From Massilia sp. MS-15 (GTDB taxonomy: Bacteria > Pseudomonadota > Gammaproteobacteria > Burkholderiales > Burkholderiaceae_D): a stretch of DNA of 64,000 nt. The notes below the pieces were generated by a model. That model was not told where the DNA came from. It ran no database searches and saw only the letters and a program-made list of their open reading frames with translations. The stretch covers positions 310,001-374,000 of the forward strand of contig NZ_JAIWIA010000001.1 of the NCBI RefSeq assembly GCF_020176695.1. The letters run 5' to 3'. Shown here one piece after another: positions 27,386 to 55,018 of the stretch. A program made the position numbers and the translations under genes. Position 1 is the stretch's first letter. The number at the start of each line of letters is the position of its first letter.

Positions 27386-27500
27386 CGTAGGGTGGGCGGC
27401 TTTGGCCGCCCACATGGTGATCGATGCGGGCTCCGCTCTCGGGCGCAATGATCTTGCTGCTGACTATCACCGCGTGGGCGGGAGACCCGCCCACCCTACG
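27386..27500. repeat. Compound hairpin intergenic repeat, copy 2 (inverted)
   Basis: Ends CGTAGGGTGGGCGG (27386-27399) and CCGCCCACCCTACG (27487-27500) are perfect inverted repeats. Each end also forms its own hairpin: GTGGGCGGC-TTT-GGCCGCCCAC and GTGGGCGGG-AGA-CCCGCCCAC. Read on the minus strand it matches the repeat at 7666-7795, including 24 identical bases at one end and GCCGCCCACCCTACG at the other. Its right end overlaps the TAG stop codon of the cheA gene (27496-27498). Confidence 0.75.
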
Positions 27501-29370
27501 CCGCCAGGCGGACGTTCGAACGGCACCCGTCCATCAGGAAGGACAGGCCCACCACCAGCACCAGTTCGCCCTCGGCCGAACGCGCGGTACCGGTGATGCC
27601 TTCGACCGACAGCGCGGTCATCGGCTTGATCACCAGGTCGGCCGTGCCATCCACGGCCTCCACCGCCAGGATGTAGGGCTGGGGCGCGTTGACGACGATG
27701 CCGACCCGTTCCGAGCACGCTTCGTAGCCCAGCGCCAGCGCCAGCGAACGCACCGGCAGCGGGCGGCCCTGGTCCTTCAGCACCGGAGCGCCGCCCACGC
27801 ACTGGAACTCTTCCGGCAGCTCGACCACGCGTTCGACCACGGCCATCGGCAGCGCCAGCGAGGCGCCCGAGGTCGAGACCAGCATGGTCGGCACGATCGA
27901 CAGCTCGATCGGCAGTCGGATCGCGAAGCGGGTGCCCGCGCCCAGGGTCGATTCGATCCGGATCGCGCCGCGGTTCTTCTCGACCGCGGTCTTGACCACG
28001 TCCATGCCCACGCCGCGGCCCGACACCGAGGACGCCACTTCCTTGGTCGAGAAGCCCGGCAGGAACACCAGCTGGTAGGCATCGTCGTCGTTGGGGGCGC
28101 CGTTCTCGCCGATCAGGCCCTTGTCGATCGCCTTGCGGCGCAGCTTGACCGGATCCATGCCCTTGCCGTCGTCCTGCAGCACGATCATGACGCTGTTCGC
28201 TTCCTGCCAGGCTTTCAGCAGGATGAAGGCCTTGGCCGGCTTGCCGGCGGCGACGCGCTCTTCCGGCGACTCGACGCCGTGGTCGAGCGCGTTACGGAGC
28301 ATGTGCACCAGCGGGTCGTACAGGCTGTCCACCACGACGCGGTCGACCTCGGTCTCGGCGCCTTCGATGGTCAGCTCGACGTCCTTGCCGAGGTCCTTGG
28401 CCAGCTCGCGCACCAGGCGCGGGAATTTCTGGAACAGGCGGCCCACCGGCTGCATGCGGGTCGCCAGCGTGGCGCGCTGCAGTTCGGCCGAGTAGCGCGA
28501 AGCGCGTTCCAGGGTCTCGGTGAGCGTGGCCATGAGCGCGGCGGCCGGCCCCTCGAACTTGAACTGCTGCAGGCGCTCGAGCAGCACGGCGGCCTGGTTG
28601 GCGGCCTGCACCGATTCGCCCGCCACTTCCAGCAGGGCGTCCAGCTTGACCGCATCGATGCGGATGCTTTCGTCCTTGGCCGGCGCGGCGGCGGCGCGCG
28701 CATCGGCCACCTTGTCGTTCTGGCGGCGGTCGATGCCATCCCAGCCGCCCTGTTTCGCCGCCGGCGTGGCTACGGCGGCCACCGGTGCCGCAGCCGGCGC
28801 GGCGCTTCCCGCCGTGGCGGGAGCCGCAGCTGCCGCGATCGCGGAAGCGGCAGGCACCACCGCGTTGTACATGCCGATCCAGTCCAGTTCGTCCCCGCCC
28901 ACCGCCGGCGCAGCCGGCGCAACCGCGACCGCAGGGGCGGCCGCGACCGGGGCAGGCGCGGCGACCGGCGCCGGTGCGCTCGCGCCCTTGCCTTCGATCG
29001 CATCCTTCAGGATGCGCTCGAGCGCTTCCGGCATCGAGGCCAGGCCTTCCGGCGGCGTGCCGTTGTTCAGGTCGTTCAGCTGGTCCGCCACGAAGCCGGA
29101 GGCTTCGAGCGCCGCTTCGATCGCCAGCGGCGTCACCGGCGCGGCGCCGGTGCGCAGCGCATCGAACAGGTTCTCGGTGAGGTGGCAGGCGGCGACCAGT
29201 GCGGGCAGTCCCATGAAGCCCGCCCCACCCTTGATGGTGTGGAAGGAACGGAACACCGCGTTCAGCGTTTCCTTGTTGTCCGGATCGCGTTCGAGGCGCA
29301 GCAAATGTTCTTCAACATTCACCGCAAGGTCCATCGCCTCGACGACGAAGTCCTTGAGCATATCGTCCAT
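27496..29370 (-). CDS. cheA: Chemotaxis histidine kinase CheA
   Basis: 624 residues, a soluble kinase controlled by receptors through CheW. An Hpt domain has phospho-accepting His44 (SFHTIKGGAGF). An Ala/Pro-rich linker (about 130-240) follows, without an obvious CheY-binding P2 domain. Then come the dimerisation domain (RIDAVKLDALLEVAGE), HATPase with N box RNALDHG, G1 DDGKGMD, F box FLPGFSTKE and G2 GRGVGMDVV, and a C-terminal CheW-like domain. The start overlaps the cheZ stop by one base (TAATG). It ends inside a repeat that supplies the stop codon. No CheY, CheW or receptor gene lies nearby. Confidence 0.92.
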   Translation of the reverse strand: MDDMLKDFVVEAMDLAVNVEEHLLRLERDPDNKETLNAVFRSFHTIKGGAGFMGLPALVAACHLTENLFDALRTGAAPVTPLAIEAALEASGFVADQLNDLNNGTPPEGLASMPEALERILKDAIEGKGASAPAPVAAPAPVAAAPAVAVAPAAPAVGGDELDWIGMYNAVVPAASAIAAAAAPATAGSAAPAAAPVAAVATPAAKQGGWDGIDRRQNDKVADARAAAAPAKDESIRIDAVKLDALLEVAGESVQAANQAAVLLERLQQFKFEGPAAALMATLTETLERASRYSAELQRATLATRMQPVGRLFQKFPRLVRELAKDLGKDVELTIEGAETEVDRVVVDSLYDPLVHMLRNALDHGVESPEERVAAGKPAKAFILLKAWQEANSVMIVLQDDGKGMDPVKLRRKAIDKGLIGENGAPNDDDAYQLVFLPGFSTKEVASSVSGRGVGMDVVKTAVEKNRGAIRIESTLGAGTRFAIRLPIELSIVPTMLVSTSGASLALPMAVVERVVELPEEFQCVGGAPVLKDQGRPLPVRSLALALGYEACSERVGIVVNAPQPYILAVEAVDGTADLVIKPMTALSVEGITGTARSAEGELVLVVGLSFLMDGCRSNVRLAA

Positions 29371-30215
29371 TAGAACCCCAGATCGGCCAGAAGATCGTCA
29401 ACGCTGTCCTGGTTCAGTGCCGTGTCCGGCACCGACGGGCCCTGCATCAGCGGCGCAGGTGCTGGCGGGGCTTCCTTCTTCGCCAGCTTTTCCTTCAGGT
29501 CGGCCGGCGCGTTGTCGCGCAGTAACTGGGCCAGTTCCGATTCGACGGTCTGGGTGATCTTGACCACTTTCTTGATCAGCTGGCCGGTAATGTCCTGGAA
29601 ATCCTGGGCCATCATGATTTCGAGCAGGCGGGCCTTCTCGGCTTCCGTGGCTTCGTTGACGGTGGCGGCGAACTGGCGCGCGTCGCCAGCCAGGGCCTTG
29701 AACTCATCCAGGCTGAGCTTGCCCGAGAACAGGTCGGCCCAGCGGCTTTCCATGTCCTTGGCCTGCTTCGACAGCAGGTCCTGGGCCGGCATGCCTTCGT
29801 CCAGGGTATTCAGCACCTTGTTGGCGGCCTGCTCGGTGAGGGTAGCGACGTATTCCAGGCGGTCCTGGGCGTCGACGATGGCCGACGAGGCCTCGGTCAG
29901 CGCCTTGTCGTAGCCGAGTTCGCGCAGCGAATCGTGCAGCAGGCGCACGATGCCGCCGAGGCGCTCGTACATGCCGTGCTCGCCATCGCCGCCAGTGGCC
30001 GCCGCCGGCGCCGGCGCCGGATCGGCGGCGTCCGTAGTGGGCGCCGCTGCGGGCGCCGCGACGCTGGCTGCGGCCACCTGGTCGAACAGGGATTCGAGGT
30101 CGTCTTCGTCAGTCACGACGGCGACCGGCTCGGGCGCCGGGGCGGCGGGAGCGTTGGCGCGCTGCGCCGCCACTTCCTCGAATAGTGCGTCGAAATCGTC
30201 AGCGGCGTCGGTCAT
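29370..30215 (-). CDS. cheZ: Protein phosphatase CheZ
   Basis: 281 residues. It dephosphorylates CheY-P to reset the flagellar switch. The long-helix core contains the catalytic segment MMAQDFQDITGQLIKKV, and the extreme C-terminus DDLLADLGF is the CheY-docking peptide. It is longer than the E. coli protein (214) because of an N-terminal extension of about 80 residues with two related motifs, DALFEEVAAQ and ESLFDQVAAA, in Ala/Pro-rich sequence. It is first in the operon with cheA. Confidence 0.9.
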   Translation of the reverse strand: MTDAADDFDALFEEVAAQRANAPAAPAPEPVAVVTDEDDLESLFDQVAAASVAAPAAAPTTDAADPAPAPAAATGGDGEHGMYERLGGIVRLLHDSLRELGYDKALTEASSAIVDAQDRLEYVATLTEQAANKVLNTLDEGMPAQDLLSKQAKDMESRWADLFSGKLSLDEFKALAGDARQFAATVNEATEAEKARLLEIMMAQDFQDITGQLIKKVVKITQTVESELAQLLRDNAPADLKEKLAKKEAPPAPAPLMQGPSVPDTALNQDSVDDLLADLGF

Positions 30216-42234: not shown

Positions 42235-45063
42235 TCAGGCGGTGACTGTCGCGGCCTGCAGCGCTGTCCGTAGCATATCCAGGGAATACGGCTTCGGCAG
42301 GATTTCCACACCGCTTTCTTCCATGAGCCCGCCAATGCCGCTTGCCATCAAGAATTGGAGGTGGGGGTAACGGGCTTTCGCGAGCTGGACCAGGTCATCG
42401 CCCTGGATACCTGGCAACTGGTGGTCAGTCATCAGGATCTGGATGTCGGGTGCGAGCTTTGCCAACGCTTCCTCCGCGCTAGCGACCGCCACTACCGCAT
42501 ATCCCAGGAACTCGACCATGTCGCGCGTATTGGCACGGATATCGGCGTCGTCTTCCACCAGCAATACCTTGACGCATGCAGATGCAGGCGACGAGATTTC
42601 GCAAGCGGCCTCGAGTGGCAACTGTGCCTGCGGGGCGACGTGCCGCTGCTTTTCGTTGGCCAAAACATGCCGGATCTTTCTGGCCAGACCCTCCGTGGTG
42701 TAAGGCTTCCCAATCAGCTCGACGCCGCGGTCGAGGCGGCCTCCGTGGACAATCGCATTCTCCGTATAGCCTGAAGTGAAGAGTACGGCAAGTGCTGGCA
42801 GGCGCTCTTTCGCCTTACGCGCAAGTTCCGGGCTGCGCAAGGGCCCCGGCATCACGACGTCGGTGAACAGCAGGTCGATGTGCACGCCGCTGTCGATGAC
42901 GGTCAGCGCGGCGCTGGCATCATTGGCCTTGAGCACGCGGTATCCCAGCGTGGTCAGGATATCGACCGCCGTCGCCCGCACAGCATCGTCATCCTCGACC
43001 ACCAGGACGGTTTCGCTGCCCCCCACCACCGGCTGCGTCTCCAGAGGGACATAGGCATCTTCTGCATCGAGCGAACGCGGCAGGTAAAGCTTGATGGTCG
43101 TGCCTTCGCCGATCTCGCTGTAGATCTTGATGTGCCCTCCGGACTGCTTGACCAGGCCATACACCATCGATAGTCCCAGGCCCGTGCCCTTTCCTTCCGC
43201 CTTGGTCGAAAAGAAGGGTTCGAAGGCCTGGCGCATGACTTCGGGTGTCATGCCGCTGCCCGTATCGGTGACGGCGATGACCACGTATTGCCCAGGAGAA
43301 ACATCCGGATGGGTGGTGCAGTAAGCGGCATCGAGCAAGGCGTTGTTGACTTCGATCGTCAGCTTGCCGAGGCCGTCCATCGCATCGCGCGCGTTGATGG
43401 CCAGGTTGAGTATGGCGTTTTCCAGTTGCACGATGTCGACCGAGGTGCTCCAGAGGCCACCGGAGACTACCGATTCCATCTCGATTTCCTCGCCCAGGCT
43501 GCGGCGCAGCATGTCTTCGATGCCCGTGATCAGGCGACCGACCTTGATCACCTTTGGTTCAAGCGGCTGCTTGCGCGCGAAGGACAGCAGGGAGCTGGCC
43601 AGCTTGGCGCCGCGCTCGACGCTGGCCAGCGCATTCTCGGCCCTGCGGCGAACGGATGGCATGGCGTTCACCTCGGCCGCCATCAATTGCAGGTTACCGG
43701 AGATCACCTGCAGGAGATTGTTGAAGTCGTGGGCCACGCCGCCGGTCAGCTTCCCGATCGTTTCCATTTTCTGGGCTTGTTGCAGGGCCGCTTCGGTCTG
43801 CCGCATGGCCTCGGCATGTTGCAGCTCCGCGGTGATGTCCCTGCCGATCGCGTGGATGAAATGCGCATCGGGCACGGCCGTCCACGACAGTGTGCAATAC
43901 GTGCCATCCACCCGGCGGTAGCGATTCTCGAAACGGAACACATGGGCGCCACTGCTCAGTGAGCTGACGCGCTCGATGGTAGCCTGCACATCGTCGGGAT
44001 GGACGAAGTCGAGGAAGGACGTCCCGATGACGTCCTGCTCGCGCCAGCCCAGGGTGGACATGAATGCGGGGTTGACGGCCGTCAGGCTGGCATTGAAGTC
44101 GGCGATGAGCATGATGTCTTTCGACAGGCGCCAGATGCGGTCGCGCTCGGCAGTCCTGACCGAGACCTGTTCCTCCAGGGTTGCGTTGAGGCTGACGAGT
44201 GCCTGGGCGGTCGCCTTCTGCTCTTCGATATCGGTGTTACTTCCGATCCAGCGCACCACCTCGCCATGCTCGTTGCGCATCGGCACGCCCCGCACCAGGT
44301 GCCAGCGGTAGGCGCCGTCCTGGCGCCGGATGCGGAACTCCACTTCGTATTCGATCCCGGCCGCGATCGATGCGGACCAGCGCTCGACGACAGTCGGCAG
44401 GTCGTCCGGGTGGATGATGCTGGCCCAGGCATCGCCATCGAGTTCGCCTTCGCGGACGCCGGAATACGCATAGACGCGCTGGTTGAACCAGTCGAGCCGG
44501 CCATCGGCCGGCGCCGTCCATACGTGGTGCGGCATTGCCTGGGCAAAGGTGCGGAATTTGACCTCGCTCTCACGCAGTGCCGCTTCGGCCTTGATCTTCA
44601 GGCTGGTTTCGATAACGACCGCTAGCACGCCGACGATGCCGCCGTTCTCGTCGACGACCGGAGAATAGTCGAGGTTCATCCAGACCTGTTCCGGCGCGCC
44701 GCTTCGGTGCAGGGTGAGCTCCTGGTCAACATAACTGAGCGTTTCGCCACGCATGACGCACTTCATCACATTGTCGTTGAAGTCCGCCACTTCGGGCCAC
44801 CCTTCCCGCACTTTCGAGCCGAGCAGCTGCGGATGACGTCCTCCGGCAAAGCCCGAGTACGCATCGTTATAGATCATGAAGCCATCCTCGCCCCACAAGG
44901 TCACGATGGGTACCGGCGAGCGAAGGATCGCGCCGACCGTGGTCTTGAGCACACCAGGCCAGCCATGAATCGGCCCCAGTGCGGTCCGGTCCCATGGATA
45001 GGCGCGAATCAGTTCTGCGGTCTTGCTACCGACGTTCATGAAGCCGAAAGGATCGAGTGGCAT
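42235..45063 (-). CDS. PAS-containing hybrid histidine kinase with two receivers
   Basis: 942 residues, with no membrane segments, so cytoplasmic. Three PAS domains occupy about 15-425 (first LWGEDGFMIYNDAYSGFAG, second WTAPADGRLDWFNQRVYAYSG, third LIADFNASLTAVNPAFMSTLGW), followed by the His box GGVAHDFNNLLQVISGN, HATPase (N box NLAINARDAMD, G boxes DTGSGM and GTGLGLSMVYG) and two receiver domains (VLVVEDDDAVRATAV with Asp in LLFTDVVMPG; VLLVEDDADIRAN with Asp in ILMTDHQLPG). It presumably senses an internal signal and phosphorelays to an unlinked partner. Confidence 0.92.
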   Translation of the reverse strand: MPLDPFGFMNVGSKTAELIRAYPWDRTALGPIHGWPGVLKTTVGAILRSPVPIVTLWGEDGFMIYNDAYSGFAGGRHPQLLGSKVREGWPEVADFNDNVMKCVMRGETLSYVDQELTLHRSGAPEQVWMNLDYSPVVDENGGIVGVLAVVIETSLKIKAEAALRESEVKFRTFAQAMPHHVWTAPADGRLDWFNQRVYAYSGVREGELDGDAWASIIHPDDLPTVVERWSASIAAGIEYEVEFRIRRQDGAYRWHLVRGVPMRNEHGEVVRWIGSNTDIEEQKATAQALVSLNATLEEQVSVRTAERDRIWRLSKDIMLIADFNASLTAVNPAFMSTLGWREQDVIGTSFLDFVHPDDVQATIERVSSLSSGAHVFRFENRYRRVDGTYCTLSWTAVPDAHFIHAIGRDITAELQHAEAMRQTEAALQQAQKMETIGKLTGGVAHDFNNLLQVISGNLQLMAAEVNAMPSVRRRAENALASVERGAKLASSLLSFARKQPLEPKVIKVGRLITGIEDMLRRSLGEEIEMESVVSGGLWSTSVDIVQLENAILNLAINARDAMDGLGKLTIEVNNALLDAAYCTTHPDVSPGQYVVIAVTDTGSGMTPEVMRQAFEPFFSTKAEGKGTGLGLSMVYGLVKQSGGHIKIYSEIGEGTTIKLYLPRSLDAEDAYVPLETQPVVGGSETVLVVEDDDAVRATAVDILTTLGYRVLKANDASAALTVIDSGVHIDLLFTDVVMPGPLRSPELARKAKERLPALAVLFTSGYTENAIVHGGRLDRGVELIGKPYTTEGLARKIRHVLANEKQRHVAPQAQLPLEAACEISSPASACVKVLLVEDDADIRANTRDMVEFLGYAVVAVASAEEALAKLAPDIQILMTDHQLPGIQGDDLVQLAKARYPHLQFLMASGIGGLMEESGVEILPKPYSLDMLRTALQAATVTA

Positions 45064-48844: not shown

Positions 48845-50059
48845 TCAGCTCATGGTGGCGGCCGGCACGGTCTGCTCGCAGGTCGGCAGCACCAGCGTGA
48901 ACGTCGAGCCCTCGCCCGGCCTGCTCGTCACGCGCAGCTCGCCGCCGTGCGACAGCGCCAGCTGGCGCGAAATGTACAGGCCCAGTCCCAGGCCCTTGGG
49001 CTCGCCGTTGCGCGCGCCGCGCTCGTAGGGTTCGAAGATGCGTTCCAGGTCGTTCGGCGAAATGCCCTTGCCTTCGTCGCGCACGTGGATGCTGACCAGG
49101 TCCTGCGCATACTGCACGCTCACCTCGACCGGCTGGCCGCCGCCGTAGCGCAGCGCATTGGTGAGCAGGTTGACCACCACCTGCTCGATGCGGAACTCGT
49201 CCCAGCATCCCTGGACCGGCGGGTGCGGCAGCAGCGACAGCCTGCAGCCGGTGGCCGCGGCCTGCAGCGACAGGTCGCTCACCACCCGCTCGAGCAGGTC
49301 CATCAGCTGGACCTGGCCGGGCCGGATCGACAGCTGGCCGCTGCGCATGCGCGACACGTCCAGCATGTCGTCGATCAGGCGGATCATCGACTTGATCTGG
49401 CGCTCGTCGCGCCGGATCATGGCCTCGAACTGCTCCGGGGCGATGGTCGCCAGGGTGCCCCGCTTGAGCTGCAGGCTGCGCATCTGCGCTTCCAGGAACA
49501 GGGTGTTGAGCGGCGTGCGCAGCTCGTGCGCCACCAGCGACATGAACTCGTCGCGCATGCGCAGGGAGCGCTGCAGCTCTTCCTGGGTCTGGTGCAGCTC
49601 GCGCAGCAGGGTTTCCTGCTCCTGGCGGCTGTGCTCCAGGGCCGCCATCTGGCGCTGCATCTGGCGCCGCTGCTGGTCGAGCGTGACGAACACGTTGACC
49701 TTGCTGCGCACCGCATCGGAGTCGAGCGGCTTGTACAGGAAATCGACCGCGCCCGTCTCGTAGCCCTTGAAGGCGTAGTTCAATTCGCGTCCGGCGGCCG
49801 ACACGAACACGATCGGGATGTTGCGGGTGCGCGAGGTCGAGCGCATCACCTCGGCCAGCTCGAAGCCGTCCATGCCCGGCATCTGCACGTCGAGGATGGC
49901 GAGCGCGAAGTCGTGCTCGAGCATCAGCGTCAGCGCTTCCTCGCCCGACGCGGCCTGGTACACCGCGCGGTCCTCGCCGCGGATCAGGGCATCCAGCGCG
50001 CGCAGGTTTTCCGGCAGGTCGTCGACGATCAGGAGTTTGCTCGGATCTTGGGAATTCAT
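48845..50059 (-). CDS. Receiver-histidine kinase
   Basis: 404 residues. The N-terminal receiver has acidic pair IVDD and phospho-Asp57 (LAILDVQMPGMDGF) with switch Lys110 (FLYKPLD). A coiled coil (about 125-168) leads to the kinase with His178 in SLVAHELRTPLN and HATPase boxes LLTNALRYGG, DEGKGIS and GLGLGLYISRQLA. It has no sensor or output domain, so it probably takes phosphate or input from the hybrid kinase at 51509 and acts last in the operon. The ATG overlaps the CheB stop by 4 bases. In-frame extension upstream would enter cheB and is rejected. Confidence 0.9.
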   Translation of the reverse strand: MNSQDPSKLLIVDDLPENLRALDALIRGEDRAVYQAASGEEALTLMLEHDFALAILDVQMPGMDGFELAEVMRSTSRTRNIPIVFVSAAGRELNYAFKGYETGAVDFLYKPLDSDAVRSKVNVFVTLDQQRRQMQRQMAALEHSRQEQETLLRELHQTQEELQRSLRMRDEFMSLVAHELRTPLNTLFLEAQMRSLQLKRGTLATIAPEQFEAMIRRDERQIKSMIRLIDDMLDVSRMRSGQLSIRPGQVQLMDLLERVVSDLSLQAAATGCRLSLLPHPPVQGCWDEFRIEQVVVNLLTNALRYGGGQPVEVSVQYAQDLVSIHVRDEGKGISPNDLERIFEPYERGARNGEPKGLGLGLYISRQLALSHGGELRVTSRPGEGSTFTLVLPTCEQTVPAATMS

Positions 50060-50673
50060 GGGGTCCTCAGCATGGGAAGCAGGGTCCGGATGCCGGACAG
50101 GGGCAGCACGAGATGCGGCGCGCAGCGGCGGATCGCTTCCTCGGGCATCGCGCTGGAGGAGGCCTCGGCCGGGTCCTGCACCACGGTCAGGCCACCGCGC
50201 TCGCGGATCCGGCGCATGCCGTCGGCGCCGTCGTGGTTGGCGCCGGTGAGCAGGATGCCGGCCAGGCGCGGTCCGTAGGCGTCGGCGGCGGACTCCATCA
50301 GCACGTCGATCGCCGGCCGCGCGAACTGCACCGGCGGCTCGCAGCTGAGCGAGAAGCAGCGCTCGCGCTCGACCGACAGATGATAGCCCGAACCGGCGAA
50401 ATAGATCACCCCCGGCATCAAGGGCTCCTTGTCGCGCGCCTCGCGCACCGGCAGCGCGGCGCGCAGTTCGAACAGTTCGGCCAGGCGGCTGTCGCGGTCG
50501 GCCGGCACGTGCAGGATGCAGACCACGGTGGGGCCGTAACCGGCCGGCAGTTCCGGCAGCAGGCCGATCAGCGCGTCGACGCCGCCGGCCGAGCCGCCGA
50601 TCACGACCAGCTCGATGCGCCGGCCCTGCAGCGCCGGACCGATATCGCCGATGCGGTCGGCCGCGCTGCTCAT
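50056..50673 (-). CDS. Single-domain CheB-type methylesterase
   Basis: 205 residues. It is the catalytic domain of CheB only, with no regulatory receiver domain. The triad is visible: Ser28 (VIGGSAGGVDAL), His55 (ILHVPADRD) and Asp148 (LLTGANHDGADGM). CheB demethylates or deamidates receptor glutamates, but no receptor gene lies here. Overlaps of 4 bases on both sides tie it to cheR upstream and the receiver-kinase downstream. Confidence 0.9.
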   Translation of the reverse strand: MSSAADRIGDIGPALQGRRIELVVIGGSAGGVDALIGLLPELPAGYGPTVVCILHVPADRDSRLAELFELRAALPVREARDKEPLMPGVIYFAGSGYHLSVERERCFSLSCEPPVQFARPAIDVLMESAADAYGPRLAGILLTGANHDGADGMRRIRERGGLTVVQDPAEASSSAMPEEAIRRCAPHLVLPLSGIRTLLPMLRTP

Positions 50674-51512
50674 GCGGCGCTCTTGCGGTAGAGGCGCTCG
50701 CGCCGGGCCAGCACGTCGAAGCGCCCGGCGTAGCTGGAGAACTCGATGCTCTCCTTGCTGCCCAGGCCCAGGAAGCCACGGTAGCACAGCGACTCGTGGA
50801 ACAGGCCCAGCACGCGGTCCTGCAGCTTGCGGTTAAAGTAGATCAGCACGTTGCGGCAGCTGACGAAATGGGTTTCCGAGAACACGCTGTCGGTGGCCAG
50901 GCTGTGGTCGGCGAAGGTCACGTTCTCGACCAGCGCACGGTCGAACAGGGCGCCATCGTAGGCCGCCGTGTAGTAATCGGAAAAAGCGCGCTTGCCCCCC
51001 GCCTTCTGGTAGTTCTCGGTGTACAGGCGCATGCGCTCGAGCGCGAACACGCCGCGCCGCGCCGCCTCCAGCGAGGCCGGGTTGATGTCGGTGGCGTAGA
51101 TCAGGCTGCGTTCCAGCAGGCCTTCTTCCTGCAGCAGGATGGCGAGCGAATAGACCTCTTCCCCGGTGCTGCAGCCGGCGACCCACAGTTTCAGCGAAGG
51201 ATAGGTCCTGAGCAGCGGCACCACATGCTCGCGCAGCGCGACCCAGTATTCCGGGTCGCGAAACATCTCGGTGACGGGAATCGTCAGGTACTGCAGCAGC
51301 TGGGCGAAGCCGTCCGGCTCGTGCATCACCCGGGCCTGCAGCGCGGACACGGTATCGCAATCCATCTCGCGCATCGCGACCAGGACGCGCCGCTTCTGCG
51401 AGGCCCCCGTATAGTCGCGGAAGTCGTAGTTGTACTTCAGGTAGACGGCCTCCACCAGCATCTTCAGCTCGATGTCGAAGTTGTCCGGCTCCTGCGGGTC
51501 GAGCGGCTTCAC
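50670..51512 (-). CDS. CheR-type methyltransferase
   Basis: 280 residues. The N-terminal helical CheR domain (YNYDFRDYTGASQKRRVLVAM) is followed by the SAM-binding domain with LWVAGCSTGEEVYSLAILL, ATDINPASLEAARRGVF and VSCRNVLIYF. It should methylate glutamate side chains. The start codon is GTG (51510-51512), overlapping the stop of the hybrid kinase as GTGA. There is no C-terminal TPR as in many CheR paralogues. Confidence 0.9.
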   Translation of the reverse strand: MKPLDPQEPDNFDIELKMLVEAVYLKYNYDFRDYTGASQKRRVLVAMREMDCDTVSALQARVMHEPDGFAQLLQYLTIPVTEMFRDPEYWVALREHVVPLLRTYPSLKLWVAGCSTGEEVYSLAILLQEEGLLERSLIYATDINPASLEAARRGVFALERMRLYTENYQKAGGKRAFSDYYTAAYDGALFDRALVENVTFADHSLATDSVFSETHFVSCRNVLIYFNRKLQDRVLGLFHESLCYRGFLGLGSKESIEFSSYAGRFDVLARRERLYRKSAA

Positions 51513-54500
51513 ATGCGCTCCAGTGCCGGCATCCAGACCCGCAGCAGCGAGTACAGGCGCGACAGGTCGATCGGCTTGGCCAGGTAGTCGTTGGCGCCCG
51601 CGGCCAGGCACTGCTCCTGGTCGTCCTTCATGGCCTTGGCCGTGATCGCGATCACCGGCAGGCGGTCGAAGCGTCCGTCGGCACGGATGCGGCGCGTCGC
51701 TTCCAGCCCGTCCATGCCCGGCATCATCACGTCCATCAGCACCAGGTCGATGCCCGGCACCTCGTCCAGCTTGGCCAGGGCCTCGAAGCCATTGCGGCCT
51801 ACCTCGACTTTCGCCCCACGCGACTCCAGTGCGCTGGTCAGGGCGAACACGTTGCGCACATCGTCGTCCACCAGCAGGATGGTACGGCCTTCGAACACAC
51901 GGTCGCGTCCGCGCACCGCCTTCAGCATGGTCTGGCGCTCGGACGACAGCTCGCTCTCCACCTTGTGCAGGAACAGCGTGACCTCGTCCAGCAGGCGCTC
52001 GGGCGAACGCGCGCCCTTGATGATGATCGAGCGCGAATACTTGAGCAGCTGGGCTTCCTCGTCGCGCGTCAGGTTGCGGCCCGTGTAGACGATCACCGGC
52101 GGGAACGAGCAGACTTCCTCCCCCGCCATCCGTTCCAGCAGCTCGCCGCCCTGCATGTCGGGCAGCTTGAGGTCGATGACCATGCAGTCGAAGATCTGCT
52201 CCTTCAGCAGGGCCAGGGCCTCGCCGCCGGTGCCGACCGCGCGGATTTCGACGTCGGCGTCGGCGATCAGCTGCACCACGCTCTCGCGCTGGCGTTCGTC
52301 GTCCTCGACCAGCAGCACGCGCTTGATCTTCTGGCTCGATTTCTCCTGCAGCTTGCGGAACACCTCTTCGAGCTGCTCGCGGCTGGCGGGCTTGAGCGCA
52401 TAGCCGATCGCACCCAGGTGCAGGGCCTCGCCGCCGTTCTCGACGCTGGAGACCACGTGTACCGGGATGTGGCGGGTGGCGGGATTGTCCTTCAGCTGCT
52501 GCAGCACCGTTAGGCCCGAGCTGTCGGGCAGGCGGATGTCGAGCAGCACCGCGTCCGGCTTCTGGCTGGCGGCCAGCGCCAGGCCTTCACCGGCGCTCAG
52601 GCCCACCAGGCAGCGGTAGTCGAGTTCGTGCGCCAGGTCGAACAGGATGCGCGCGAATTCCGGCTCGTCCTCGATCACCAGCACGGTGCGCCGGCCCGGT
52701 GCCGGCTGGTCGCGGTCATCCGGGAAGCTGGCCGGCGGCATGGTATCGGCGGGTCCGCCGCCTGCGGCCGGCGCGGCTGCGAACGCCGGGGCCGCGGCCG
52801 GCGCTGGCGCCGCAGCCGGCGCTGGCGGCGCACCGGGTGGCGGCAGCATAGGCGCGGCCGGCGGGGTGGCCGACACCGCGCCGCTGCGCGGCAGGCTGAG
52901 GGTGAACAGGCTGCCCTCGCCCGGCGTGCTGGCCACCGCCAGGCTGCCGCCCAGCAGGTTGGTCAGGTCGCGCGAGATCGACAGGCCCAGGCCGGTGCCG
53001 CCGAAGCGGCGGCTGGTAGTGCCGTCGGCCTGGTGGAAGGCATCAAAAATCTTGTCCTGCTGGTCGGGCGCGATGCCGATGCCGGAATCGCGCACCCCGA
53101 ACTGCACCCAGCCCTCGGGCGTGGCCGACACCGTCATCTCGACCTGGCCGCTGTCGGTGAACTTGACGGCATTCGACAGCAGGTTCTTGAGGATCTGCTC
53201 GACGCGCTGGCGGTCGGTGGTGATCGCGGCCGGCACGTTCGGCGCCACCGTCACGCTGAAGGACAGCGACTTCTGGCGCGCCAGCGGCTCGAAGGTGCGC
53301 GCCAGGCCCTCGACCATGCGGCGCAGCGGCACCTCTTCCGGCAGCAGTTCGAGCTTGCCCGCTTCGACTTTCGAGATATCGAGGATGTCGTTGATCAGGT
53401 GAAGCAGGTCGTTGCCGGCCGAATAGATGGTCTGGGCGAAGCGCACCTGTTCCTCGCTCAGGTTGCCGCCCGTGTTATCGGCCAGCAGCTTGGCCAGGAT
53501 CAGGGAACTGTTCAGCGGCGTGCGCAGCTCGTGCGACATATTGGCCAGGAATTCCGACTTGTAGCGGCTGGCGCGTTCGAGTTCCAGCGCGCGCTGGCGC
53601 AGCTGCTCCTGGGCGCCGGTCAGGGCCGCGTTCTTCATGTCCAGGTTCAGGGCCTGTTCGGCCAGCTGGTCGTTGGTGGCGCGCAGCTCGGACTGCTGGT
53701 TTTCCAGCGCCGTCTGCGACTCTTCCAGCGCGCGTGACTGCTCTTCGAGTTCCTCGTTGGCGGTACGCAGTTCTTCCTGCTGCACCTGCAGTTCCTCGTT
53801 CAGGGTTTGCGTTTCCTCCAGCGCGTGCTGCAGGCGCAGGCGGTACAGCACCGCCGCCATCGAGGCGCCGACCGCCGGCGCGATCAGTTCCATGAACTCG
53901 CGGTCGCGCGCTTCCACCTTGTGCAGGAAACCGATCTCGATCACGCCCTTGATCTTGCCATGATTGTGGACCGGGGCGATCAGGAGTTCGCGCGGCGCCG
54001 CATTGCCCAGGCCCGAGGCCACCTTGATGTAGCCGTCCGGCAGGTCGTGCAGCACCAGCGACCGGCGCTCGATGGCGGCGCGGCTGGCCAGCGAATCGCC
54101 CGGCATCAGGACCTGGGCGTCGTCGGCCTTGTCGAAGGCGAAGCCGTAGGCGCCGATGCGGCGCAGCACGCCGTCCTCGCCGTGCACGTACATGGCCGCC
54201 ACCGCGCCGTCCAGGTAGCGTACCAGGTAGTTGAGGACGGCCTCGGCCAGCGGTTCCAGCGCGTGGATGCCGGCGCTCAGCGCGGCCAGCTCGGCCTGGC
54301 CGGAGCGCAGCCAGTCCTGGTGGCGCAGCTGGGCATTGTGCTCGGCCTCGTGTTCCAGCGTTTCCTGGTAGGAATCGGACAGCATCATCAGCTGGCGACG
54401 CCCGAACAGGGCCAATCCGACGCCCGCCAGCAGGCTCAGGACCAGGAATCCCACCACAGACCAGGTCGTGACGCGGCGCGCTTCGTCATTCCGTTCACGT

Positions 54501-55018
54501 AGCTGGCGCCGTTCAAGGTCGAGAAAATCCTCGAAGGAGCGGCGGATCTCGTCGGTCAGGATCTTGCCGCGGCCGCTGCGCACGGCGTCGAGGTAGCTGG
54601 GATCGTTGCGGCGGCGGCGCTCGATCATCTCGGCGGCAAACTCTTTCCACTGGGCCTGCGAGCCACGGATGCGCTGGATGCGCTGGATCTGGAACGGGTT
54701 GTCCGCCACCTGCTCGGTCATGATTCCGAGTCCGCTCTGCACGCGCTGCATCGCCAGCAGATAAGGGGAGAGGAAAGCTTCGTCCCCGGCCAGCAGGTAG
54801 CCGCGCATGCCGGCCTCCATGTCGGCCACCATCTTGCTGGTTTCCTGGGCAGTGCCGATCGCCCGCTCGGACTGCTCGACCCGGTTCAGGACATTGATCA
54901 GATAGGCGATGATGGCGACGAAGACGATCGCGGTGACGACGCTCAATCCCAGCGGCAAGGCCACATTGCGGGTCAGGATGCGGCGGAATTGTGAATTATC
55001 GATGGATGAGCCGGTCAT
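51509..55018 (-). CDS. CHASE3-GAF hybrid histidine kinase with three receivers
   Basis: 1169 residues. Membrane helix 1 is at about 20-42, a CHASE3-like extracytoplasmic domain (TAQETSKMVADMEAGMRGYLLAGDEAFL) at about 43-185, and membrane helix 2 (WSVVGFLVLSLLAGVGLALF) near 190-209. Then come a GAF domain (about 245-395), a long coiled coil (EELQVQQEELRTANEELEEQ), the His box FLANMSHELRTPLN, and HATPase with NLLSNAVKF, DSGIGI and GTGLGLSISRDL. An Ala/Pro linker precedes three receivers (VLVIEDEPEFARI / LLDIRLPD; VLLVEDDERQRES / VIDLKLPD; ILLVDDDVRNVFAL / LMDVMMPGMDG). It is first in an operon with cheR, cheB and a receiver-kinase. Confidence 0.93.
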   Translation of the reverse strand: MTGSSIDNSQFRRILTRNVALPLGLSVVTAIVFVAIIAYLINVLNRVEQSERAIGTAQETSKMVADMEAGMRGYLLAGDEAFLSPYLLAMQRVQSGLGIMTEQVADNPFQIQRIQRIRGSQAQWKEFAAEMIERRRRNDPSYLDAVRSGRGKILTDEIRRSFEDFLDLERRQLRERNDEARRVTTWSVVGFLVLSLLAGVGLALFGRRQLMMLSDSYQETLEHEAEHNAQLRHQDWLRSGQAELAALSAGIHALEPLAEAVLNYLVRYLDGAVAAMYVHGEDGVLRRIGAYGFAFDKADDAQVLMPGDSLASRAAIERRSLVLHDLPDGYIKVASGLGNAAPRELLIAPVHNHGKIKGVIEIGFLHKVEARDREFMELIAPAVGASMAAVLYRLRLQHALEETQTLNEELQVQQEELRTANEELEEQSRALEESQTALENQQSELRATNDQLAEQALNLDMKNAALTGAQEQLRQRALELERASRYKSEFLANMSHELRTPLNSSLILAKLLADNTGGNLSEEQVRFAQTIYSAGNDLLHLINDILDISKVEAGKLELLPEEVPLRRMVEGLARTFEPLARQKSLSFSVTVAPNVPAAITTDRQRVEQILKNLLSNAVKFTDSGQVEMTVSATPEGWVQFGVRDSGIGIAPDQQDKIFDAFHQADGTTSRRFGGTGLGLSISRDLTNLLGGSLAVASTPGEGSLFTLSLPRSGAVSATPPAAPMLPPPGAPPAPAAAPAPAAAPAFAAAPAAGGGPADTMPPASFPDDRDQPAPGRRTVLVIEDEPEFARILFDLAHELDYRCLVGLSAGEGLALAASQKPDAVLLDIRLPDSSGLTVLQQLKDNPATRHIPVHVVSSVENGGEALHLGAIGYALKPASREQLEEVFRKLQEKSSQKIKRVLLVEDDERQRESVVQLIADADVEIRAVGTGGEALALLKEQIFDCMVIDLKLPDMQGGELLERMAGEEVCSFPPVIVYTGRNLTRDEEAQLLKYSRSIIIKGARSPERLLDEVTLFLHKVESELSSERQTMLKAVRGRDRVFEGRTILLVDDDVRNVFALTSALESRGAKVEVGRNGFEALAKLDEVPGIDLVLMDVMMPGMDGLEATRRIRADGRFDRLPVIAITAKAMKDDQEQCLAAGANDYLAKPIDLSRLYSLLRVWMPALERM

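Follow-up and report, generated by a model that had tools for sequence, protein, structure and literature searches.

What do a methyltransferase and a methylesterase of the chemotaxis type do in an operon whose other two genes encode histidine kinases? The question is raised by a locus of Massilia sp. MS-15, contained in a 64,000-nucleotide stretch of contig NZ_JAIWIA010000001.1 (positions 310,001 to 374,000 of the forward strand), hereafter the window. Four genes run there on the minus strand in the order hybrid kinase, cheR, cheB, receiver-kinase, with a 4-base overlap at all three junctions (GTGA, ATGA, and ATGA). Open reading frame (ORF) coordinates and junction sequences confirm the coupling that a first-pass annotation of the DNA had described. 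Pfam searches confirm the gene contents it had read: CheR_N and CheR in the cheR product, CheB_methylest only in the cheB product, a receiver, HisKA, and HATPase in the receiver-kinase, and, in the hybrid kinase, CHASE3 (residues 45-178), GAF (255-385), HisKA (487-554), and HATPase (602-711) followed by three receivers. Judging from comparative sequence analysis, we consider it fairly likely that the operon is a CfcA-type two-component module in which CheR and CheB control the hybrid kinase through methylation of its signalling helix (S-helix). Its features are as follows.

51509..55018, minus strand: hybrid histidine kinase (CHASE3-GAF-S-helix, three receivers), CfcA/RsbK-like, 1169 amino acids, ATG start; ORF and Pfam
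54485..54886, minus strand: CHASE3 domain, residues 45-178, probably periplasmic; Pfam E 1.6e-31, topology by eye
53864..54256, minus strand: GAF domain, residues 255-385; Pfam GAF_2 E 6.8e-13
53735..53797, minus strand: conserved S-helix core, residues 408-428, with three Glu-Glu (EE) heptads, the predicted methyl-acceptor segment; conservation in 35 kinases
53771..53773, minus strand: E416, second Glu of QQEEL, the most likely principal methylation site; register and conservation
53531..53533, minus strand: H496, phospho-acceptor histidine of the hybrid kinase; H-box
50670..51512, minus strand: CheR-type methyltransferase, 280 amino acids, GTG start, grouping with RsbM-type CheRs, S-adenosylmethionine (SAM) motif intact; Pfam, alignment, and tree
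50056..50673, minus strand: CheB methylesterase domain without a receiver, 205 amino acids, ATG start; Pfam and alignment
48845..50059, minus strand: receiver-histidine kinase, CfcD-like, 404 amino acids, ATG start; Pfam

The first line of evidence is the kinship of the methyltransferase. A branch with 100/100 support divides a tree of 131 CheR sequences, rooted for display only, into two groups: the module CheRs together with ten of the RsbM type and three degenerate copies, and 19 chemotaxis or CheB-CheR-fusion CheRs. RsbM itself is absent from the tree and is represented by ten Bacillota loci of the RsbK-RsbM type, eight of them assigned by architecture and two confirmed with Pfam, which encode a CHASE3-HAMP-GAF-histidine kinase-receiver protein beside a gene for a receiver-SpoIIE phosphatase, as in the RsbK-RsbM-RsbY layout. 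The nearest CheRs to that of the window come from its own genus. By this tree, the window's CheR groups with the RsbM-type enzymes of Bacillota and apart from chemotaxis CheRs. Both enzymes of the operon keep their presumed catalytic motifs. All 17 aligned CheR sequences have GCxxGEE, TD, and CRN, to which we ascribe catalysis and SAM binding, and vary slightly elsewhere; S28, H55, and D148 of CheB, presumably its catalytic residues, are likewise invariant in all 17. A sequence search of the PDB matched chemotaxis CheR and CheB structures only, and among the NCBIfam matches listed no family scored above its cut-off. According to the excerpted text of PMC4574943, the hybrid kinase RsbK of Bacillus cereus is methylated on its S-helix by RsbM and thereby kept inactive. 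Given that the window's CheR groups with the RsbM-type enzymes, a methylated-kinase mechanism has a direct precedent.

Conservation of the hybrid kinase points to the same helix. Among 35 chosen module kinases, 12 of the 21 columns in residues 408-428 are at least 95% conserved, compared with 40 of 70 in HisKA, 3 of 150 in GAF, and 0 of 134 in CHASE3. The S-helix core, whose limits were chosen after the sequences were seen, thus roughly matches HisKA in conservation, and CHASE3 and GAF are variable; downstream of the core on the same coil, chiefly leucines are conserved. EE pairs occupy residues 408-409, 415-416, and 422-423 of the window kinase, with the second Glu 87, 80, and 73 residues before the phospho-acceptor histidine (H-87, H-80, and H-73), and E415, E416, and E425 are present in all 35 kinases. 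In MCPs (methyl-accepting chemotaxis proteins), too, paired glutamates recur at heptad spacing along a coiled coil. In all ten Bacillota RsbK-type kinases, EE pairs are placed such that their second Glu falls at H-66 and H-59. With H505 as the phospho-histidine of RsbK, we take these offsets to be those of E439 and E446, which Chen is said to have named in 2012 as the main and the minor methyl site. The window's EE pairs keep the heptad register of H-66 and H-59 but are displaced from H-66 by one to three heptads, away from the H-box. The methyl acceptors here would be the second Glu of the EE heptads, namely E416 and probably also E409 and E423.

The link between this motif and the enzyme was followed in 134 loci, 120 of which had a usable kinase helix; 14 were dropped, for example L237, whose kinase lies at a contig end. 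Most CheR-bearing rows were chosen by their CheR and most CheR-less rows by helix similarity, so the set is not a random sample; considering that rows were picked by similarity and that the EE motif was defined after the data were seen, we report counts only. A Q-x-EE-L/M heptad occurs in 94 of the 95 kinases beside an intact CheR, and 93 of them have at least two EE pairs in register. Ten other kinases adjoin CheRs that the script had flagged as non-canonical. Six of these CheRs appeared to be working enzymes on inspection (L108, L111, L115, L124, L129, and L149), with a variant motif or, at L111, the wrong CheR chosen, and five of the six kinases have at least two EE pairs. The CheR of L252 is part of a CheB-CheR fusion, and its kinase has two EE pairs. 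The remaining three flagged CheRs, all of the window's genus, have no SAM motif, and none of their kinases has an EE pair. Among three kinases near contig ends, L169 and L255 carry four EE pairs and L239 none.

The three CheRs without the SAM motif belong to a paralogous kinase-CheR pair. In the Massilia sp. MS-15 genome, contig C50 (~145960-150000, locus L171) encodes a HAMP-GAF hybrid kinase together with a CheR-like protein lacking GCxxGEE. Copies that are 78% and 63% identical to it are kept in two genus relatives, likewise without the motif. Three of the four genus genomes sampled thus carry the protein, and the fourth does not. Their nearest intact relative in the tree is the CheR of L064 (support 94/87, below the starred level, with a degenerate branch of 2.33), whose kinase has one QQEEL heptad, and the kinases of the degenerate pairs lack the seven-residue stretch that holds this heptad. 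The paired loss of SAM motif and EE heptads is at most one evolutionary event and not three, and loss is the presumed direction of change.

A helix-only scan of 200 genomes of the order (E 1e-8) approached the same link from the kinase side. It returned 17 places in 16 genomes, and CheR stands beside the helix in 15 of the 17; one of the others is at a contig end, and one (L168) has no CheR in the 13 kb examined. L168, on contig C12 of genome G119, is a CHASE3-GAF hybrid kinase whose EE S-helix is complete, and a whole module is present on another contig of G119.

Further support comes from genomes in which no chemoreceptor was matched. We searched 49 genomes that carry a CheR of the module clade (drawn from the best 80 of 581 loci) for MCPs, with all statements on CheW based on Pfam searches. 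An MCP match was found in 37 genomes and none in the other 12. None of these 12 has a CheW match, all 12 have a CheR match, and ten have the module CheB; Paracoccus zeaxanthinifaciens (L108) and Neobacillus cucumis (L123) are without it. Two of the 12, Sediminibacterium goheungense and Chryseobacterium takakiae, have no CheR match besides that of the module. The MCP-free set comprises four metagenome assemblies and eight isolates, and the absences depend on genome completeness; as far as the genomes are complete, the enzymes in these 12 cannot serve MCPs.

The first-pass annotation had proposed that the two enzymes act on glutamates either in the long coiled coil or in the CHASE3 helices of the hybrid kinase. 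The coiled coil is favoured by the RsbM/RsbK kinship, by the module genomes without MCP or CheW, and by the conserved EE heptads. We reject the CHASE3 helices: hydrophobic segments at residues ~21-41 and ~187-205, judged by eye from the sequence, flank this domain, which is thus most probably periplasmic and unreachable for a cytoplasmic CheR.

A survey of gene order, also suggested earlier, started from the window's CheB as query. Some CheB was found in 135 of 200 genomes of the order at E 1e-15, and a match with E < 2e-37 in 16 of them, the own genome included. We compared 20 regions around CheB matches, 15 top-scoring and five lower-scoring. All 15 top-scoring regions, each from another genome, have the four genes in the same order, which argues against a chance arrangement. 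The hybrid kinase is cut by the contig start in L058 and L062, a 1.4 kb gap precedes cheR in L064, and CHASE3 was not detected with the BLAST reference in L055, L056, L057, L063, and L064. One of the five lower-scoring regions (L066; genome G129, CheB E 1e-30) has the same four-gene order and the other four have no module, so the score boundary is not sharp.

Beyond the order, a CheR profile scan of named genomes gave 581 relatives, of which the best 80 were analysed; the breadth described here is therefore a lower bound that leans to close relatives. These 80 include loci from Pseudomonadota, Bacteroidota, Verrucomicrobiota, Planctomycetota, Cyanobacteriota, Bacillota, Gemmatimonadota, and other phyla, and the same four-gene order recurs in named Pseudomonas, Variovorax, Sphingomonas, and others. 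A hybrid kinase adjoins CheR in most of the 80 loci, with none seen in L092, L100, L102, L106, and L132, and CheB lies on the same strand in 57, L094 having a fragment at a contig end. Separately, at L204 (genome G268) the module hybrid kinase is split into several overlapping frames, owing to a broken gene or an assembly fault.

Together, these observations suggest a mechanism that, for this operon, we infer in its substrate, its sites, CheB as eraser, adaptation, and output. The periplasmic CHASE3 and cytoplasmic GAF sensors would act via the long signalling helix on the HisKA/HATPase core and the three receivers. CheR would methylate the second Glu of the EE heptads, E416 and probably E409 and E423 too, and the receiver-less CheB, which would be constitutively active or controlled through contact with a partner (the first-pass annotation proposed the receivers of the kinases), would strip the methyl groups from the helix glutamates. 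Helix state and kinase output would thus be set by a slow reversible mark, as in MCPs, without MCP, CheA, or CheW. The receiver-kinase may belong to the same pathway, and the pathway would end in a response regulator whose gene lies elsewhere, perhaps a diguanylate cyclase like that of Pseudomonas putida. A wider proposal is that full reversible, MCP-independent methylation adaptation on a kinase S-helix is spread across Pseudomonadota, Bacteroidota, Verrucomicrobiota, Cyanobacteriota, and others, with Bacillota keeping the writer only; for this, the case seems to us evenly balanced. If true, chemotaxis-type adaptation would be a general device of two-component signalling, and histidine kinases would, like chemoreceptors, have a reversible methylation memory, which would bear on salt sensing, cyclic di-GMP, and biofilm control. 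The comparison names a candidate substrate and residues (E409, E416, and E423, and their equivalents in P. putida CfcA), and because some module bacteria show no MCP or CheW, they offer clean hosts for testing.

Several observations weigh against this account. At H-66 and H-59 the window kinase carries Ala instead of Glu, so that its agreement with RsbK is limited to motif and heptad register. CheB is missing from all 16 Bacillota loci among the best 80 of 581, and the excerpt of PMC4574943 calls demethylation in B. cereus unlikely. The tree tool warned of long branches meeting at the CheR split, and its 100/100 support may flatter. In P. putida, mutants of cfc genes besides cfcA kept the crinkle phenotype (authors' unpublished results, cited in PMC4951495); CheR and CheB are thus not needed for this output, which fits a tuning role but also a minor one. 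EE heptads also occur away from the enzyme. The helix search behind most CheR-less rows covered 274 genomes of the class, 17 of which yielded 21 matching places; 20 of these were taken. Among the 12 kinases without an adjacent CheR, seven have at least two EE pairs, one has one pair, and four have none. Six of the seven are in genomes with a module-type CheR elsewhere (L168, L243, and L247-L250; genomes G119, G380, and G524). The seventh, L244, lies in the 1.9 Mb genome G499, which gave no match to the CheR alignment at E 1e-10; EE heptads can thus exist without the enzyme. The genomes of the four EE-less kinases have distant CheRs only (best E 1e-16 to 6e-44, versus 1e-124 for the module type). 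An exclusive tie of EE heptads to CheR is rejected on the seven of 12; by these counts the link is strong, not exclusive.

The operon's enzymes might instead modify ordinary MCPs in trans and merely be housed beside kinases. Such enzymes can act in trans, the own genome has a chemotaxis system with 22 MCP-domain and 9 CheW-domain matches in Pfam searches, and MCPs occur in 37 of the 49 genomes searched. However, the 12 remaining genomes have neither an MCP nor a CheW match, module CheRs stand apart from chemotaxis CheRs in the tree, and the own genome has a separate cheR that adjoins cheW and a second CheW-domain gene, with a receiver-bearing CheB (L170) close by. In P. putida, moreover, a chemotaxis role of the CheR/CheB pair CfcB/CfcC is said to have been excluded (excerpted text of PMC4951495, citing Garcia-Fontana 2013). 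We regard action on MCPs as very unlikely.

It is also unlikely, in our estimate, that the enzymes serve another partner, for example by modifying the receiver-kinase on its coil or by acting in trans on further hybrid kinases, or that CheB is mainly a glutamine deamidase. The Ala residues at the exact RsbK offsets slightly lower our confidence in S-helix methylation in favour of this alternative, and the six EE-bearing kinases with a module-type CheR elsewhere in the genome would suit modification in trans. The window's receiver-kinase has one EE pair before its H-box, yet this pair is missing in both relatives inspected (L209 and L254, two only), and several RsbK-type loci keep kinase and CheR without any receiver-kinase (e.g., L121, L123, L137, L138, and L140). 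That CheR and CheB are structural parts of a kinase complex, with catalysis of little weight, would be consistent with the retention of a CheR-like protein without the SAM motif beside a hybrid kinase in three of four sampled genus genomes. The EE heptads are missing beside those same three copies, however, and none of the 17 aligned members of the window's operon type has lost the CheR SAM motif or the CheB triad, which makes a purely structural role highly improbable. Methylation of the kinase S-helix by CheR, with CheB as its counterpart, thus remains our preferred reading of the operon.

The earlier statement that no MCP, CheA, or CheW is present stands for the operon and fails for its surroundings, given the MCP-domain and CheW-domain matches in the genome and a CheA-like kinase in the window. 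The latter (Hpt, H-kinase_dim, HATPase, and CheW; 27496-29370, minus strand) and a CheZ gene immediately upstream (29370-30215, minus strand) are separated from the module by ~20 kb. Another large hybrid kinase with several PAS domains and two receivers is encoded at 42235-45063 on the minus strand; the genes between it and the module include neither CheR nor CheB. A scan for promoters and terminators gave a result at chance level.

The closest described system is the cfc cluster of P. putida. In the excerpted text of PMC4951495, cfcABCDE is headed by cfcA, whose product is required for the diguanylate cyclase CfcR and drives cyclic di-GMP synthesis; CfcA is further cited as involved in salt sensing (excerpt of PMC10950880, citing Tagua 2022). 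The window's four-gene set matches the cfcABCD type (P. putida CfcA is PP_3761; compare BmsA of P. alkylphenolica), so the novelty implied by the first-pass annotation is not borne out. In the same vein, an excerpt of PMC8175716 places a bmsA orthologue of another Pseudomonas (gene 3082 of the studied strain) beside cheR, cheB, and a hybrid kinase. The P. putida locus in our set (L073) has a CHASE3-GAF-histidine kinase with three receivers, CheR, CheB, and a receiver-histidine kinase in the window's order, with a CheR 70% identical to the window's, and from this gene make-up it appears to be the cfc locus. Beside the window's operon, neither a fifth gene nor a CfcR was found. A search for the cognate output regulator by receiver similarity returned a receiver-histidine kinase-receiver protein as best match and no clear candidate; a receiver-PAS-GGDEF protein of the own genome (L280), fourth of 29 in the ranking (query included) with a receiver only 36% like the receiver-kinase's, is a weak candidate for a CfcR-like output. 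In the literature examined, which was available in part, we found no substrate named for the CheR/CheB pair beside CfcA-type kinases and no description of CheB acting on a kinase.

With RsbK/RsbM, the operon shares a CHASE3-GAF hybrid kinase with an S-helix beside a CheR-type methyltransferase, and EE heptads in the same register. RsbK differs in having HAMP and one receiver, has Glu where the window kinase has Ala at the two exact offsets, goes with neither a CheB nor a receiver-kinase, and signals to the RsbY phosphatase and sigma B; the excerpt of PMC4574943 describes RsbM as an orphan methyltransferase without a cognate methylesterase. As the window has three receivers and a CheB, its operon is not an RsbK/RsbM pair proper. 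With MCP adaptation it shares the enzyme families CheR and CheB, whereas its gene company (no MCP, CheA, or CheW), the missing receiver of its CheB, and the separate grouping of its CheR set it apart from a chemotaxis CheR/CheB set. The gene set was thus already known from Pseudomonas; what the present comparison adds is the prediction of methylation sites and comparative support for the kinase as the target.

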